Assembly: GCF_016429285.1 (NCBI RefSeq)
Contig: NZ_JAELUI010000034.1
Location: forward strand, 1 to 45,326
Length of the DNA stretch: 45,326 nucleotides
Reading direction: 5' to 3'
Source of the DNA: Ralstonia sp. ASV6
GTDB lineage: Bacteria > Pseudomonadota > Gammaproteobacteria > Burkholderiales > Burkholderiaceae
Shown in pieces: positions 148-30,661 of the stretch. The notes beneath the pieces are model-generated. The model saw nothing but the letters and a program-made list of their open reading frames with translations. It searched no databases and was not told the origin of the DNA. Numbering within the stretch: the stretch's first letter is position 1; every line of letters begins with the position of its first letter. The position numbers and the translations under genes were made by a program.

Positions 148-2265
148 TCAGTCTGAACCGGCGTCTACCGGCAGCGTATCGGGTTGCAGCGAGCGCAAAA
201 AGCCCGCTGCGGTATCAGCTTCACGCGTGCGCTTGAAGGGCGGCAGACTTTGCCAGATTTGCCGGCCGTAGTTCTTCTCCACCAGGCGTGGGTCGCAGAT
301 CATCAGCACGCCGCGATCGGTCTCGGAGCGAATCAACCGCCCCGCCCCTTGCTTGAGCGTGATGACGGCGTGCGGCAACTGGTGTACGGCGAATGGGCTC
401 AAGCCCTTCTTTTCCAGTGCTTCCATGCGCGCACTCAGCACCGGATCATCGGGCGGCGCAAACGGCAACTTATCGATCACGACCAGCGACAACGCCTCGC
501 CGCGCACGTCCACGCCCTCCCAGAAACTCTGGCTGCCGATCAGCACGGCATTACCGAGCGTGCGGAAACGATCGAGCAGCTCGGTGCGGCTGGCCTGCCC
601 CTGCACTAGCAACGGAAAATCCCAGCCACGCTGGGCAAACTCATCGGCCAGTCGTTCGGCTGCGCGGTTGACGGCACGCAGCGTCGTGCACAGCACGAAG
701 GTCTTGCCACCCGCCGCCTCAATCATCGGCAACGCAGCGTCGAGCACGGCATCCGTAAAGCGCGGATCGCTCGGTTGCGGCAGATCACGCGGCACATACA
801 GCAAGCCCTGCGACGCGTAGTCGAACGGGCTGTCCAGCGTCATCGACTGATCGCGATTGAGCCCAAGTTGTGCCGCGTAATGGGTGAAGTTGCCGCGCAC
901 CGACAGCGTGGCTGAGGTGAATATCCATGCGCGCGGCTGGCCCGCACGCTGGCGCGAAAAGATCGGCGCAATCGACAGCGGCGTCAGATGCAGTTGCACA
1001 GAATTGGCAAAGACCTCGACCCAGCGCACGCGCTCATCGAACGGTGCGGTTTCCACCGTCTCACCCTCTTCGTTCTTCACCACGGGCGCCGGCTTGGGGT
1101 TGGCCCACGCATCCAGCTGGTCGCACAGCGCGGCGGCACGCCGATGGCACTGCTCGATGGTCTCGGCGCGCTCGGCCTGGGCCTCCAACGCGCCTGTGAA
1201 ATCCGACAGCGCTTGCTCCAGCTTCGGCAGCACTTCGTAGAACGGCTTGGCTGTCTCCTGATCGTTGTCGATCTGCTTGATCGACAGGCGCGCGCCGTCC
1301 TGGCGGAACACCAGGCGCAGATCACGTGCGGCACGCTCCAGCGGTGCGGCAATCGCAACCCAATCCACCGCATCACGCGCATGCGACAGCCCCTCAGCCA
1401 CGGCATCGCGTGCCAGCTCCAGAATCTGGTTGGTCGAAATCGTCTCGCCAAAGAACAGCGTGGCGGTTTCGGGCAACTGGTGCGCTTCGTCGAAGATGAT
1501 CGTATTGGCCGCCGGCAGTAACTCGGCCATTCCCGTGTCCTTCAACATCACATCTGCAAAGAACAGGTGATGGTTGACCACCACCACATCGGCCTGCTGC
1601 GCCTCCTTGCGGGCGCGCATGACGAAGCAGTCCTTGTAGTACGCGCAATCGGAACCAAGGCAGTTGTCGCGCGTGGACGTCACGAGATTCCACACCGGCG
1701 CGTTCTCGGGCACGGTGGACATCTCGGCCTTGTCGCCCGTCTTCGTGGTCTTCAGGAAGAGATTGATCTGGCGCAGCCACGCCGCATCCTGACGCGACGA
1801 CAGGCGCCCGTTCTGCGACGTGCGTTCCAGGTGGTAATGGCAGACGTAGTTCGCACGCCCCTTGAGCAGCGCCACCGAGACCGGCGCATTCAGCGCCTTG
1901 CGCACCGTCGGAATGTCACGCAGGAAGAGTTGATCCTGCAGGTTCTTCGTCCCCGTGGACAGGATCACCTTGCCGCCCCACAGCATCGCCGGAACAAGGT
2001 ACGCGTAAGTCTTGCCCGTGCCCGTGCCGGCCTCGACGATGAGCGAATCGGCGGCCTCAATGGCATTGGCCACCGCCTGCGCCATCGTCAGCTGCGAGCT
2101 GCGCGGCCGATACGAGTCGATGCCTTTGGCCAGCGTGCCGTCGTCGGCGAAGAGTGTCGCCAGTTCACCATGATGGGCATCGGCGGGGACGGCGGCGGGA
2201 GCAGAGCTGTCACCAGCCGCACCGGAATCACTCGGCGGCTCGGCGAGCGGGGAAAGCGAAGTCAA
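148..2265 (-). CDS. dinG: ATP-dependent DNA helicase, DinG/YoaA (XPD-like) family
   Basis: Superfamily 2 helicase of the XPD/DinG type, expected to unwind 5' overhang, D-loop, R-loop or G-quadruplex substrates in repair. Walker A AGTGTGKT lies near residues 79-86. Walker B is DEAH. The late helicase motif QGAGRLIRSETDRG is near the C-terminus. A cysteine set (VCHYHLER, then CLGSDCAYYKDC) fits the XPD-type 4Fe-4S cluster that distinguishes this family. The start is taken as TTG at 2265, with AAGGGA about 10 nt upstream, giving 705 residues, close to E. coli DinG. The frame stays open to 2469, but that extension reads as low-complexity Ser/Arg/Cys and overlaps the 3' half of the YdcH-like gene. 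DinG and YoaA cannot be separated with certainty here. Confidence 0.88.
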   Translation of the reverse strand: MTSLSPLAEPPSDSGAAGDSSAPAAVPADAHHGELATLFADDGTLAKGIDSYRPRSSQLTMAQAVANAIEAADSLIVEAGTGTGKTYAYLVPAMLWGGKVILSTGTKNLQDQLFLRDIPTVRKALNAPVSVALLKGRANYVCHYHLERTSQNGRLSSRQDAAWLRQINLFLKTTKTGDKAEMSTVPENAPVWNLVTSTRDNCLGSDCAYYKDCFVMRARKEAQQADVVVVNHHLFFADVMLKDTGMAELLPAANTIIFDEAHQLPETATLFFGETISTNQILELARDAVAEGLSHARDAVDWVAIAAPLERAARDLRLVFRQDGARLSIKQIDNDQETAKPFYEVLPKLEQALSDFTGALEAQAERAETIEQCHRRAAALCDQLDAWANPKPAPVVKNEEGETVETAPFDERVRWVEVFANSVQLHLTPLSIAPIFSRQRAGQPRAWIFTSATLSVRGNFTHYAAQLGLNRDQSMTLDSPFDYASQGLLYVPRDLPQPSDPRFTDAVLDAALPMIEAAGGKTFVLCTTLRAVNRAAERLADEFAQRGWDFPLLVQGQASRTELLDRFRTLGNAVLIGSQSFWEGVDVRGEALSLVVIDKLPFAPPDDPVLSARMEALEKKGLSPFAVHQLPHAVITLKQGAGRLIRSETDRGVLMICDPRLVEKNYGRQIWQSLPPFKRTREADTAAGFLRSLQPDTLPVDAGSD

Positions 2266-10356: not shown

Positions 10357-10433
<77 letters not shown>

Positions 10434-10461: not shown

Positions 10462-10539
<78 letters not shown>

Positions 10540-23669: not shown

Positions 23670-25451
23670 TCAACGCTTGCGAGCGGGCGGCACATCCGTG
23701 CAAACGCCTTCGTAGATTTCCGCAGCCATACCCACCGACTCACCCAGCGTCGGATGCGGGTGGATGGTCTTACCGATATCCACAGCGTCTGCACCCATCT
23801 CGATGGCCAGGCAGACCTCGCCGATCAGGTCGCCCGCATGCGTGCCGACAATACCGCCACCGATGATGCGATGCGTTTCCTCATCGAAGATGAGCTTGGT
23901 GAAGCCCTCGTCGCGACCGTTGGCGATGGCGCGACCCGAGGCGGCCCATGGGAACACGCCCTTGCCGTACTTGATGCCCTGTGCCTTGCACTGGTCTTCG
24001 GTCAGGCCAGCCCACGCCACTTCCGGATCGGTATAGGCCACCGACGGAATCTGCTTGGCATCGAAGTACGCCTTCTCGCCGTGCGCGGCTTCGGCTGCCA
24101 CGTGGCCCTCGTGCACGGCCTTGTGCGCCAGCATCGGTTGACCGACGATGTCGCCGATCGCGTAGATATGCGGTACGTTGGTGCGCTGCTGCTTATCGAC
24201 CTCGATAAAGCCGCGGTCGGTCACGGCCACGCCGGCCCTCTCGGCGCCGATGCGCTTGCCGTTCGGGCTGCGGCCGACAGCCACCAACACCATGTCGTAG
24301 CGTTGCGGCTCAGCCGGTGCAGCCTCGCCTTCGAACTTGACGTAGATGCCGTCCGGCTTGGCTTCGACCCCGACCGTCTTGGTCTTGAGCATGACCTTGT
24401 CGAAGCGGCCCTTATTCATCTTGTCCCACACCTTGACGAGGTCGCGGTCGGCGCCCTGCATCAGGCCGTCGAGCATTTCCACCACGTCGATGCGTGCGCC
24501 GAGCGTGCTGTACACCGTGGCCATTTCCAGGCCGATGATGCCACCGCCGATGACCAGCATCTTGGCCGGCACTTCACGCAGTTCCAGCGCGCCGGTCGAA
24601 TCGACAATGCGCGGATCTTCCGGAATGAACGGCAGCTTCACGGCCTCGCTGCCCGCCGCGATGATCGCCTTGGCAAAGCGGATGACCTTCTTCTCGCCGG
24701 TCGCGGCCTTGCCGTCACCGCCCGTCAGTTGCACTTCGAGGTGGTTCGGATCGAGGAACGTGCCGACACCGCGCACGACCTGCACCTTGCGCGACTTGGC
24801 CATGCCGGCCAGGCCGCCAGTCAGCTTGCCGATCACGGATTCCTTATGCTTGCGCAGCTGGTCGATATCAACCTTCGGCTCGCTATAGACGATGCCGTGT
24901 GCGGCCATCGCCTTCACTTCTTCCATTACGGCAGCGGTGTGCAACAGCGCCTTCGACGGGATGCAGCCCACGTTCAGGCAGACACCGCCCAGCGTGGAGA
25001 AACGCTCGACCAGCACAGTGTTCATGCCGAGATCGGCACTGCGGAAAGCGGCCGAGTAACCGCCCGGGCCGGAGCCGAGGACGAGCATGTCGCATTCGAT
25101 GTCAGCACCACCGGCGTGTTTGGCCGCTTGCGGTGCAGGTGCGGAGGCTGCCGGTGCAGCAGCAGGTGCTGCGGCCGGAGCCGGTGCTTGCGCAGGCGCG
25201 GGAGCAGCGGTTGCGCCCGCTTCCGCCGTGGCAATCACGGCGCCCTTGGCGACCTTGTCACCGACTTTGACCTTCACGTCGACGATCTTGCCAGCCACGT
25301 CCGACGGCACTTCCATGCTGGCCTTGTCGGACTCCAGCACGATCAGCGACTGCTCTTTCTCAACGGCGTCGCCCGCCTTGATCAGCACTTCGATGACTTC
25401 TACCGCATCGAAATCGCCGATATCCGGCACCTTGATTTCCACCAAGCTCAT
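23670..25451 (-). CDS. lpdA: Dihydrolipoamide dehydrogenase (E3) with N-terminal lipoyl domain
   Basis: 593 residues. It regenerates lipoamide for pyruvate dehydrogenase, reducing NAD+. A lipoyl domain occupies residues 1-78, with the lipoylated Lys43 in [11 protein letters not shown]. An Ala/Pro linker (about 80-112) leads to the FAD enzyme: [10 protein letters not shown] dinucleotide fold, [16 protein letters not shown] with the redox pair C158/C163, a second NAD fold ([11 protein letters not shown]) and the C-terminal HPHPTLGES with the active-site His. The lipoyl extension is the type known for the PDH-specific E3 of Cupriavidus and Neisseria. AAGGAG precedes the ATG. Last gene of the aceE-aceF-BPH-lpdA run. 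Confidence 0.96.
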
Positions 25452-25507
25452 TCCTGACTCCTTGTTCTTGTCGTCGGCTGCAGGCACTGCCTTGGCCGCC
25501 GACGCTT

Positions 25508-26080
25508 TCAATCCTGCAGACGTACTGTGTGCACTTCGATCGGGCCGCCAGAACTTTTGTCGAACTCAACACCGGCTGCCACGCCAACCTGTGCGACATC
25601 CGCCGCCGTCTTGCCCGGCATGTCGAACACCGCCGACATGGCGCCCAACGCGAAATTGCGCCCGGAGCCAATACCCCAGAAGCGGTCGAACGAAAACACT
25701 TCGCGGTATGAATAGACGCCGTAGATGCCCGTTGCATTGGCGATCAGGCAGGTGATCTGCGACGACTCGTACGGATCATCGTCGTCTTCCTTGGTGTTGA
25801 CGAAATACTCGTCTTTGAGCTTTTCGTGCACCTTGAGGAAGGTCCGGAAAACGTCGTCGCGCGTGCCGAGCCGGCACTCATCCGCCAGTCCGGTCAGCAG
25901 GCTGCGCATGACCGGAAAGTGAGCCGTCGTACCCGCCAGCGCGATCAGCGACTCGCCCACCTGGAAGATCTTCTGGTTCTGCTCGTAGCCGCGCGCCAGG
26001 CGCGTATCACCGAACGTCACCAGCGAATCGGCTGCGATTGCCACTTCGCCATCTTTCTTGACCACCACGCACGTTGTCAT
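25508..26080 (-). CDS. HslV/proteasome-like threonine peptidase, BPH type
   Basis: 190 residues of the Ntn-hydrolase fold. After Met removal, Thr1 is the nucleophile ([18 protein letters not shown]). Asp17 of AADS aligns exactly with HslV Asp17. Lys36 in NQKIFQV corresponds to HslV Lys33 with three extra residues. The later [11 protein letters not shown] matches the conserved proteasome GSGGNYALAA region. No ATPase partner (HslU) is adjacent. It differs from HslV in the acidic insertion [11 protein letters not shown] and in its tail. It best fits BPH, the betaproteobacterial proteasome homologue described as a double-ring self-assembling particle; such genes are often mislabelled MFS transporter. 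It sits in the PDH operon, 56 nt before lpdA and 78 nt after aceF, with its own AGGAC site. Substrates unknown. Confidence 0.82.
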
Positions 26081-26158
26081 GTCGTCCTCGCCAAAAGTCA
26101 GCCGACTGGGCCGGCACGCTCGGGCTCGAAGCCAGACGCGTGCCGTGCCCGTGCAGGC

Positions 26159-27817
26159 TTACAGGCTGACGCGGCGGAAATCCGCCAGCACGCTGGCCAG
26201 ATACGCGTTGAAGCGCGCTGCTTCCGCGCCGTCGATCACGCGGTGATCGTACGACAGCGACAGCGGCAGCGTCAGGCGCGGCACGAACTGCTTGCCGTCC
26301 CACACCGGCTTCTGATAGCCACGCGACAGGCCCAGGATGGCCACTTCCGGCGCGTTGATGATCGGCGTGAAGTTCGTACCACCGATGCCGCCCAGCGACG
26401 AAATCGAGAAGCAGCCGCCCTGCATCTGGTCTGGCTTGAGCTTGCCGTCACGCGCAGCTTTCGACAATTCCGCCATTTCGCGGGCGATATCGACCAGGCC
26501 CTTCTTGTCCGCATCGCGGATCACCGGCACCACCAGCCCGTTGGGCGTATCCGCCGCGAAGCCGATGTGGAAGTACTGCTTGAACACCAGGTTGTCGCCG
26601 TCCAGGCTCGCGTTGAAGGTCGGGAACTTCTTCAGTGCGCCGACCACGGCCTTGATCACGAATGCCAGCATCGTGAACTTCACGCCGGCCTTTTCGTTTT
26701 CCTTGTTCAGCGTCACGCGCAGGGCTTCGAGGTCGGTGATGTCCGCTTCGTCGTTGTTGGTGACGTGCGGGATCATGACCCAGTTGCGGTGCAGGTTCGC
26801 GCCCGAGATCTTCTTGATGCGCGACAGCGGCTTCGGATCGACCGGGCCGAACTTGGTGAAATCCACCTTCGGCCACGGCAGCAGGTTCAGCTCGCCACCA
26901 CCAGCCGGTGCGCCAGCAGCAGCCTTGCCCGGCGCTGCAGCCTGGCCGCTCATCACGCCCTTGACGTAGCGCTGCACGTCTTCTTGCGTGATACGGTTCT
27001 TCGGGCCCGTGCCGCCAACGAGGTTCACGTTGACGCCCAGTTCGCGTGCGTACTTGCGCACCGAAGGGCTGGCGTGGGCGGCCTTGCCCACCGTACCGAC
27101 CGTATCAGCGGTGTACGTGGCGGGTGCAGCTGCGGGGGCCGCGGCAGGGGCCGGGCTCGGTGCAGCGGCAGCCGGCGCAGAGGCCGGAGCTTGCGCAGGG
27201 GTCGGTGCAGCAACCGTGCCGCCAGCGCCTTCCAGCACAACGATCAGCGTGCCTTGCGACACGGCATCGCCCACCTTCACACGAATTTCCTTGACGACAC
27301 CGGCAGCCGGCGACGGTACATCCATCGTGGCCTTGTCCGATTCGAGCGTGATCAGCGACTGCTCGGCTTCCACCTTGTCGCCCACCTTCACGCTGATCTC
27401 GATGACCGGCACGTCGGTGTAGTCGCCGATGTCCGGGACCTTCACTTCAACCGTGCCGCCACCTGCAGCCACCGGCGCGGGTGCCGGGGCTTGCGCAGCA
27501 GGCGCGGGTGCCGGCGCAGCGGCGGCCGGAGCCGGTGCCGGAGCTTGTGCGGCAGGCGCCGGAGCAGCGGCAGCGCCCTGCTCTTCGAGCAGCAGCACCA
27601 GCGCGCCTTCTGACACGGTGTCGCCCACCTTGATCTTCACTTCCTTGACGACGCCGCTCTTGGGCGACGGCACATCCATGGTCGCCTTGTCCGATTCCAG
27701 CGTGACCAGCGAATCCTCGGCGTTGACGGTATCGCCCGCCTTGACCAGCACTTCGATCACCGGGACGTCTTTGTAGTCGCCGATGTCCGGCACCTTGATT
27801 TCTACGACTTGACTCAT
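26159..27817 (-). CDS. aceF: Pyruvate dehydrogenase E2, dihydrolipoamide acetyltransferase
   Basis: 552 residues. It accepts the acetyl group from E1 on its swinging lipoyl arms and transfers it to CoA. Two lipoyl domains are present (Lys44 and Lys162, each in ESDKATMDVPSP). Long Ala/Pro linkers lie at about 82-120 and 200-235. A peripheral subunit-binding domain spans about 248-285 (ASPSVRKYARELGVN). The catalytic domain (about 320-552) ends with YDHRVIDGAEAARF, which holds the active-site His. GGAG stands 8 nt before the ATG at 27817. It is 153 nt downstream of aceE. Confidence 0.96.
   Translation of the reverse strand: MSQVVEIKVPDIGDYKDVPVIEVLVKAGDTVNAEDSLVTLESDKATMDVPSPKSGVVKEVKIKVGDTVSEGALVLLLEEQGAAAAPAPAAQAPAPAPAAAAPAPAPAAQAPAPAPVAAGGGTVEVKVPDIGDYTDVPVIEISVKVGDKVEAEQSLITLESDKATMDVPSPAAGVVKEIRVKVGDAVSQGTLIVVLEGAGGTVAAPTPAQAPASAPAAAAPSPAPAAAPAAAPATYTADTVGTVGKAAHASPSVRKYARELGVNVNLVGGTGPKNRITQEDVQRYVKGVMSGQAAAPGKAAAGAPAGGGELNLLPWPKVDFTKFGPVDPKPLSRIKKISGANLHRNWVMIPHVTNNDEADITDLEALRVTLNKENEKAGVKFTMLAFVIKAVVGALKKFPTFNASLDGDNLVFKQYFHIGFAADTPNGLVVPVIRDADKKGLVDIAREMAELSKAARDGKLKPDQMQGGCFSISSLGGIGGTNFTPIINAPEVAILGLSRGYQKPVWDGKQFVPRLTLPLSLSYDHRVIDGAEAARFNAYLASVLADFRRVSL

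Positions 27818-27970: not shown

Positions 27971-30661
<2,691 letters not shown>

Follow-up and report, generated by a model that had tools for sequence, protein, structure and literature searches.

A bacterial proteasome homologue gene between aceF and lpdA of Ralstonia sp. ASV6 and its linkage to pyruvate dehydrogenase genes in Burkholderiales

Introduction

Why does a gene for a proteasome-like hydrolase lie among the genes of the pyruvate dehydrogenase (PDH) complex, and is PDH its substrate? The gene in question occupies positions 25508..26080 (minus strand) of a stretch of 45,326 nucleotides of Ralstonia sp. ASV6 (contig NZ_JAELUI010000034.1), which as a whole is called the window. An initial annotation, made from the letters alone, had named it a bacterial proteasome homologue (BPH) and proposed a part in PDH turnover or assembly. 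Hein and Steinbuechel reportedly worked on pdhL and ORF3, and a paper by Valas and Bourne (2008) is cited by Fuchs et al.

According to the available text of Fuchs et al. (PMC5777263), BPH descends from HslV, and the PDH operon of C. metallidurans is one of three BPH contexts, the others being argG and Hsp33. The solved BPHs of C. metallidurans and T. denitrificans are described there as 14-subunit double rings with Thr1 exposed without a propeptide and with the active sites inside a closed chamber; Thr1 reacts covalently with epoxomicin and also with MG132. The initial annotation had called the role unexplained, in agreement with the accessible portions of this paper and of a later survey (PMC8665760), which give no substrate; the latter names no interacting unfoldase and gives BPH a proposed function. 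Since both the family and its PDH operon context appear in the text available from PMC5777263, the finding itself is already known. Our additions to that account are modest and concern a single clade, an invariant gene order, a dispensable slot and dN/dS.

Results

Identity of the gene

The gene starts with ATG and encodes 190 amino acids. The open reading frame list, the Pfam Proteasome family (PF00227; E 6.9e-11, 42.6 bits against a cut-off of 22.4), the solved structures 5ovu and 5ovs, the catalytic residues and an AlphaFold2 model indicated that it is almost certainly a BPH, an HslV-derived chambered N-terminal threonine hydrolase, standing third in the order aceE-aceF-BPH-lpdA. The best solved relative was 5ovu (E 1.6e-97), entered in the PDB as a betaproteobacterial proteasome homologue and assigned to C. 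metallidurans in PMC5777263, with 144 of 188 residues identical (77%), followed by 5ovs (E 3.3e-34), while HslV chains ranked after both with E 0.0016 or weaker. The closest named BPHs among the matches listed were those of Ralstonia, with 97-98% identity. Together with the Pfam matches of the neighbouring genes, these results bear out the HslV-like threonine hydrolase that had been placed between aceF and lpdA.

The protein begins with MTT, and Thr1 would be exposed once Met is removed, without a propeptide. Alignment to 5ovu revealed Thr1, Asp17, Lys36, Gly49 and Ser138 at the same positions in both proteins; the first three had been named in the initial annotation, which had also pointed to a GSG-NFALGA block that can be read in the translation and had staked its reading on the catalytic triad, which the alignment shows intact. 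A long, acidic pore loop is present at residues 97-107, its counterpart in 5ovu being KEDEDDPYESS. The match to 5ovu predicts a proteasome-like fold for the window BPH. The AlphaFold2 monomer model, built from 22 BPHs, had a mean pLDDT of 87.2, with low values only around residues 97-105 (the pore loop, lowest at 97-99 and 101-105) and in parts of 21-40.

A true or misnamed HslV was ruled out. The NCBIfam HslV equivalog models gave 29.1 and 30.3 bits against cut-offs of 157.75 and 137, and the stretch matched by HslV models was limited to residues 1-54. The genome carries its true hslV, followed by hslU, on another contig (C193, L001), with scores of 294.9 bits for HslV and 681.2 bits for HslU. 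An Anbu gene was also found, on contig C3 (L003:1153-2049, minus strand; best solved match 5loy, E 8e-95). Since HslV, BPH and Anbu co-occur, the genome holds three proteasome-like proteins.

The PDH genes around the BPH gene

All four genes of the order aceE-aceF-BPH-lpdA are on the minus strand of the window. The gene aceE (27971..30661) encodes a pyruvate dehydrogenase E1 of 896 amino acids (Pfam PDH_E1_M, E 3.7e-111), and aceF (26159..27817) an E2 acyltransferase of 552 amino acids with two lipoyl domains (2-oxoacid_dh, E 4.5e-81; Biotin_lipoyl in two stretches; E3_binding). On the other side of the BPH gene, lpdA (23670..25451) encodes an E3 dihydrolipoamide dehydrogenase of 593 amino acids with a lipoyl domain of its own (Pyr_redox_2, E 1.4e-58; Biotin_lipoyl). 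A divergent gene for a PAS-domain histidine kinase precedes aceE, and beyond lpdA lies a phasin gene. Elsewhere in the window, at 10357-10430 and 10462-10535, two tRNA genes of equal Rfam score stand about 30 bp apart.

The gap between aceF and the BPH gene is 78 bp (26081..26158, minus strand) and contains GAGG, a Shine-Dalgarno-like sequence, a short distance ahead of the BPH start codon; the gap between the BPH gene and lpdA is 56 bp (25452..25507, minus strand), with AAGGAG, likewise Shine-Dalgarno-like, before the lpdA ATG. Scans of the two gaps revealed promoter-like matches in neither and no terminator-like match in the BPH-lpdA gap. One weak terminator-like match was obtained in the aceF-BPH gap (26115-26101), which is within chance because the region has 8 such matches against 9.0 in shuffles. 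From the spacing we infer that aceF, BPH and lpdA are probably carried on a single transcript. As the initial annotation had observed, no AAA+ unfoldase gene adjoins the BPH gene, its neighbours being aceF and lpdA, with hslVU on a separate contig. The Cupriavidus necator order pdhA-pdhB-ORF3-pdhL, which it had mentioned, was recovered in the two C. necator records of our set (L149 and L150). The available text of an RNA-seq study of C. necator H16 (PMC3734047) gives the tags A1374 for pdhA1, A1375 for pdhB and A1377 for pdhL, which would leave A1376 for the gene in between.

Genomic contexts of BPH genes

The survey covered 399 genomes of the order, of which 152 had a BPH match (E <= 1e-6). 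The gene neighbourhood was examined at 181 loci, which comprise the window, 100 stretches and the best 80 of at least 425 relatives from named genomes. The 100 stretches were taken down the ranking, with skips, from the matches listed in the 399-genome survey, while the 80 named-genome loci were all PDH-type and are biased to close kin. A context was assigned from same-strand tblastn matches of the query proteins within 8 kb of the BPH gene; the neighbour names argG, hslO, argF, argD, cinA, gluQ, yajQ, folD, hslV, hslU and Anbu were checked on one example each. Since the lipoyl domains of aceF and lpdA get confused with each other, E2 and E3 were placed in the PDH-type loci by their catalytic domains.

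On this basis 96 loci were PDH-type, 35 had hslO, 30 had arg genes together with yajQ, 7 had gluQ without hslO and 13 had none of these; within the 100 survey stretches the corresponding numbers were 15, 35, 30, 7 and 13. In every PDH-type locus (96/96) the E2 catalytic domain was upstream and the E3 dehydrogenase downstream of BPH on the same strand, in keeping with the conservation in other genera suggested by the initial annotation. The genera with aceF-BPH-lpdA include Ralstonia, Cupriavidus, Pandoraea, Collimonas, Noviherbaspirillum, Herminiimonas, Undibacterium, Ideonella and Aquabacterium. The gene aceE was in view in 87 of the 96, and the stretches of the remaining 9 stop 1.6 kb or less upstream of BPH, too close to it to show aceE. 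Median gaps were 79 bp (aceF-BPH) and 33 bp (BPH-lpdA), some of them approximate because the start of lpdA was set at its first ATG, and overlaps of 4 bases were found in 7 PDH-type loci on each side of BPH. The kinase gene stood beside aceE in 45 of the 76 PDH-type loci with room for it and the phasin gene was present in 33 of 85.

The hslO-type loci (in L050-L101) carried hslO after BPH, at 100 bp or less in 29 of 35; cinA or gluQ was also in view in 19 of these 35. Downstream of BPH in the arg-type loci (L102-L119, L121-L123, L125-L133), yajQ, of a cyclic di-GMP-binding family, was found on the same strand in 30 of 30, and in 27 of them at 100 bp or less. For the arg context the available text of PMC5777263 names argG, argD and argF only.

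Relatives without BPH

Thirty genomes were chosen as BPH-less controls, and 26 of them gave an E2 match. E3 followed within about 280 bp of E2, without BPH in between, in 24 of these 26. Of the other two, L239 had no E3 in view near E2, and L222 carried an ORF of 291 codons (489-1361, minus strand) between aceF and lpdA that gave no Pfam match at E <= 1e-5. A search for BPH remnants in the BPH-less relatives (tblastn, E <= 10) returned only one match of 16 residues, in L235. Because 24 of the 26 keep aceF and lpdA together, PDH does not need BPH, which is thus dispensable for the complex; the unrelated ORF of L222 indicates that the slot can host other genes.

Phylogeny, selection and conserved residues

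The tree of the 181 BPHs showed that the PDH-type sequences are separated from all others by one branch (SH-aLRT 97), and the arg-type sequences likewise (SH-aLRT 99). The hslO, gluQ and other contexts were mixed on the tree, with 4 changes each, while the PDH label needed one change, and a repeated independent association of BPH with PDH was therefore not upheld. A single clade points to one lasting event and not to repeated convergence. It suggests one entry of BPH among the PDH genes followed by descent, with the root unsure because, in this quick tree, the HslV outgroup sits on a very long branch (10 changes per column).

Pairwise distances over 93 loci gave overall correlations of r 0.63 for E2-BPH, 0.66 for E2-E3 and 0.56 for E3-BPH. 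Beyond an E2 distance of 0.15 the corresponding values were 0.20, 0.49 and 0.33.

The median dN/dS of BPH was 0.027 in Ralstonia, 0.092 in Cupriavidus, 0.022 in Pandoraea and 0.072 in Collimonas/Noviherbaspirillum, and that of the three PDH genes in the same four groups was 0.029-0.250, the upper value, for lpdA of Collimonas/Noviherbaspirillum, coming with a very high dN that may reflect an alignment or paralogue artefact. BPH is under purifying selection of about the same strength as the PDH genes. Thr1 was present in 178 of the 181 BPHs (Ser in 3), Asp17, Lys36 and Gly49 in all 181 each and Ser138 in 173, in PDH-linked and other contexts alike. The acidic loop was also kept in the PDH-type sequences, with a net 4 to 5 acidic residues over 14. 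With its catalytic residues kept and its dN/dS low, BPH is very probably a working enzyme, and a dead enzyme was ruled out on the same two grounds.

The three BPHs that start with Ser are L120 (G157), L124 (G118) and L121 (G011), L120 and L124 each being the second BPH copy of its genome; Ser1 is given in the available text of PMC5777263 for BPHs outside Betaproteobacteria. A less acidic pore-loop motif, PRKDSDDAYKTTRM, was seen twice among the loci with none of the four named contexts.

Discussion

What does the PDH context mean for the function of BPH? The explanation that we favour, and to which we give about an even chance, is that BPH acts as a chambered peptidase of general use, which needs no ATP and whose dose is tied to central metabolism, and not as a dedicated PDH-turnover factor. 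Several unrelated gene contexts argue for a general range of clients, and those contexts together with the lack of an unfoldase point to unfolded or oxidised chains as the substrate class. The mechanism itself we put forward more tentatively, at somewhat less than even. The window BPH would form the same 14-subunit chamber as the solved BPHs, its acidic pore would take in chains already unfolded or oxidatively damaged without ATP, and these would be cleaved inside at Thr1. By way of its place in the PDH operon, its dose would follow growth and carbon flux; in other loci BPH sits with hslO or argF-argG and yajQ. Residence in the PDH operon would not make PDH its dedicated substrate. Against this explanation, the available text of the cited papers shows no proteolysis by any BPH; in PMC5777263 the proteins of C. 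metallidurans and T. denitrificans cleaved neither peptides nor casein, and carbonylation patterns were unaltered by BPH. Also on the negative side, the co-occurrence with Hsp33 that could back a stress role shared with BPH is weak (130 of 152 BPH-positive and 187 of 247 BPH-negative genomes; p 0.02, kinship ignored). Low dN/dS and the context data fit any conserved function of BPH, proteolytic or not.

A role of the kind proposed by the initial annotation, in which BPH would serve dedicated PDH quality control by degrading damaged or unassembled E1, E2 or E3 while being made in step with its client, appears unlikely to us. Its case lies in the invariant order of the 96 PDH-type loci and their short gaps, in a core kept better than its flanks (kinase 45/76, phasin 33/85), although the 96 were picked for this link, and in the citation of PDH subunits as prone to carbonylation in the available text of PMC5777263. 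The same text reports that pull-downs with tagged C. metallidurans BPH yielded no PDH subunit. The published pull-downs and the 24 of 26 BPH-less relatives with E2 and E3 side by side weaken the dedicated role, as do the confinement of the PDH linkage to one clade, the same catalytic residues in BPHs of other contexts and the weak tracking of BPH and E2 distances at depth (r 0.20 against 0.49 for E2-E3).

Equally unlikely in our estimate is that BPH is a housekeeping passenger, unrelated to PDH, which stays in the operon for its useful promoter and good expression. BPH genes are headed as constitutively expressed in the available text of PMC5777263, and L222 carries an unrelated ORF in the aceF-lpdA slot, which agrees with such a passenger, but in several lineages the genes overlap or are very closely spaced, and no exit from the operon was seen within the PDH clade (96/96), which suggests more than chance residence.

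A narrower proposal, which we regard as a long shot, is that the PDH-linked clade has become specialised for PDH, with a chamber that acts under oxidative stress or a carbon shift to process or remove one particular portion of E2 or E3, such as a damaged lipoyl arm or a linker. If true, this would provide the first known natural substrate of a BPH.

A partnership of BPH with HslU, or with a different AAA+ unfoldase whose gene lies elsewhere, is very improbable: hslU is at hand beside hslV in the window's genome and BPH descends from HslV (PMC5777263, available text), but according to the same text BPH does not conserve the residues that contact HslU, pull-downs did not recover HslU and the BPH genomes offered no candidate ATPase. 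Least credible of all is a non-proteolytic N-terminal hydrolase or ligase, for instance an amidase on the lipoyl-lysine of E2 and E3, for which speak the inertness on standard peptides and casein of a protein whose Thr1 binds epoxomicin and MG132 (PMC5777263, available text) and the ligase activity of connectase, a relative in the wider family (PMC8665760, available text), and against which speak a closed chamber with inward active sites that suits peptide chains over folded lipoyl domains (PMC5777263, available text) and the same catalytic residues in BPHs without PDH linkage.

For the general peptidase dosed with central metabolism, as for its competitors, the survey limits how the PDH context may be read: a single association, under strong selection and present in many genera, is dispensable for PDH. 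BPH is a solved yet orphan chambered hydrolase, with structure, reactive threonine and gene context in hand, and this pattern directs attention to conditional phenotypes rather than to any need for BPH in assembling PDH.

Comparison with known systems

By sequence match, HslV and BPH belong to one proteasome-like fold family and have a similar N-terminal stretch; they differ in that hslU adjoins hslV in the window's genome and no unfoldase gene lies beside BPH. Anbu is likewise a member of a proteasome-like family with no known unfoldase in the available text of PMC8665760, and differs from BPH in being encoded by a separate gene of the same genome. The T. denitrificans BPH (5ovs, 5ovt) belongs to the same family as the window BPH (E 3.3e-34 for 5ovs), while its gene sits with argG, argF and argD according to the available text of PMC5777263, unlike the PDH setting of the window. 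Cupriavidus BPHs in our set often have a C-terminal tail, which the window protein lacks; among those of L141-L157, the tail stretch ATNNDGA was seen in L143, L146 and L149. The C. metallidurans BPH (5ovu), although from a different genus, has the same catalytic residues as the window BPH, an acidic pore loop and, in the available text of PMC5777263, the same PDH operon context.
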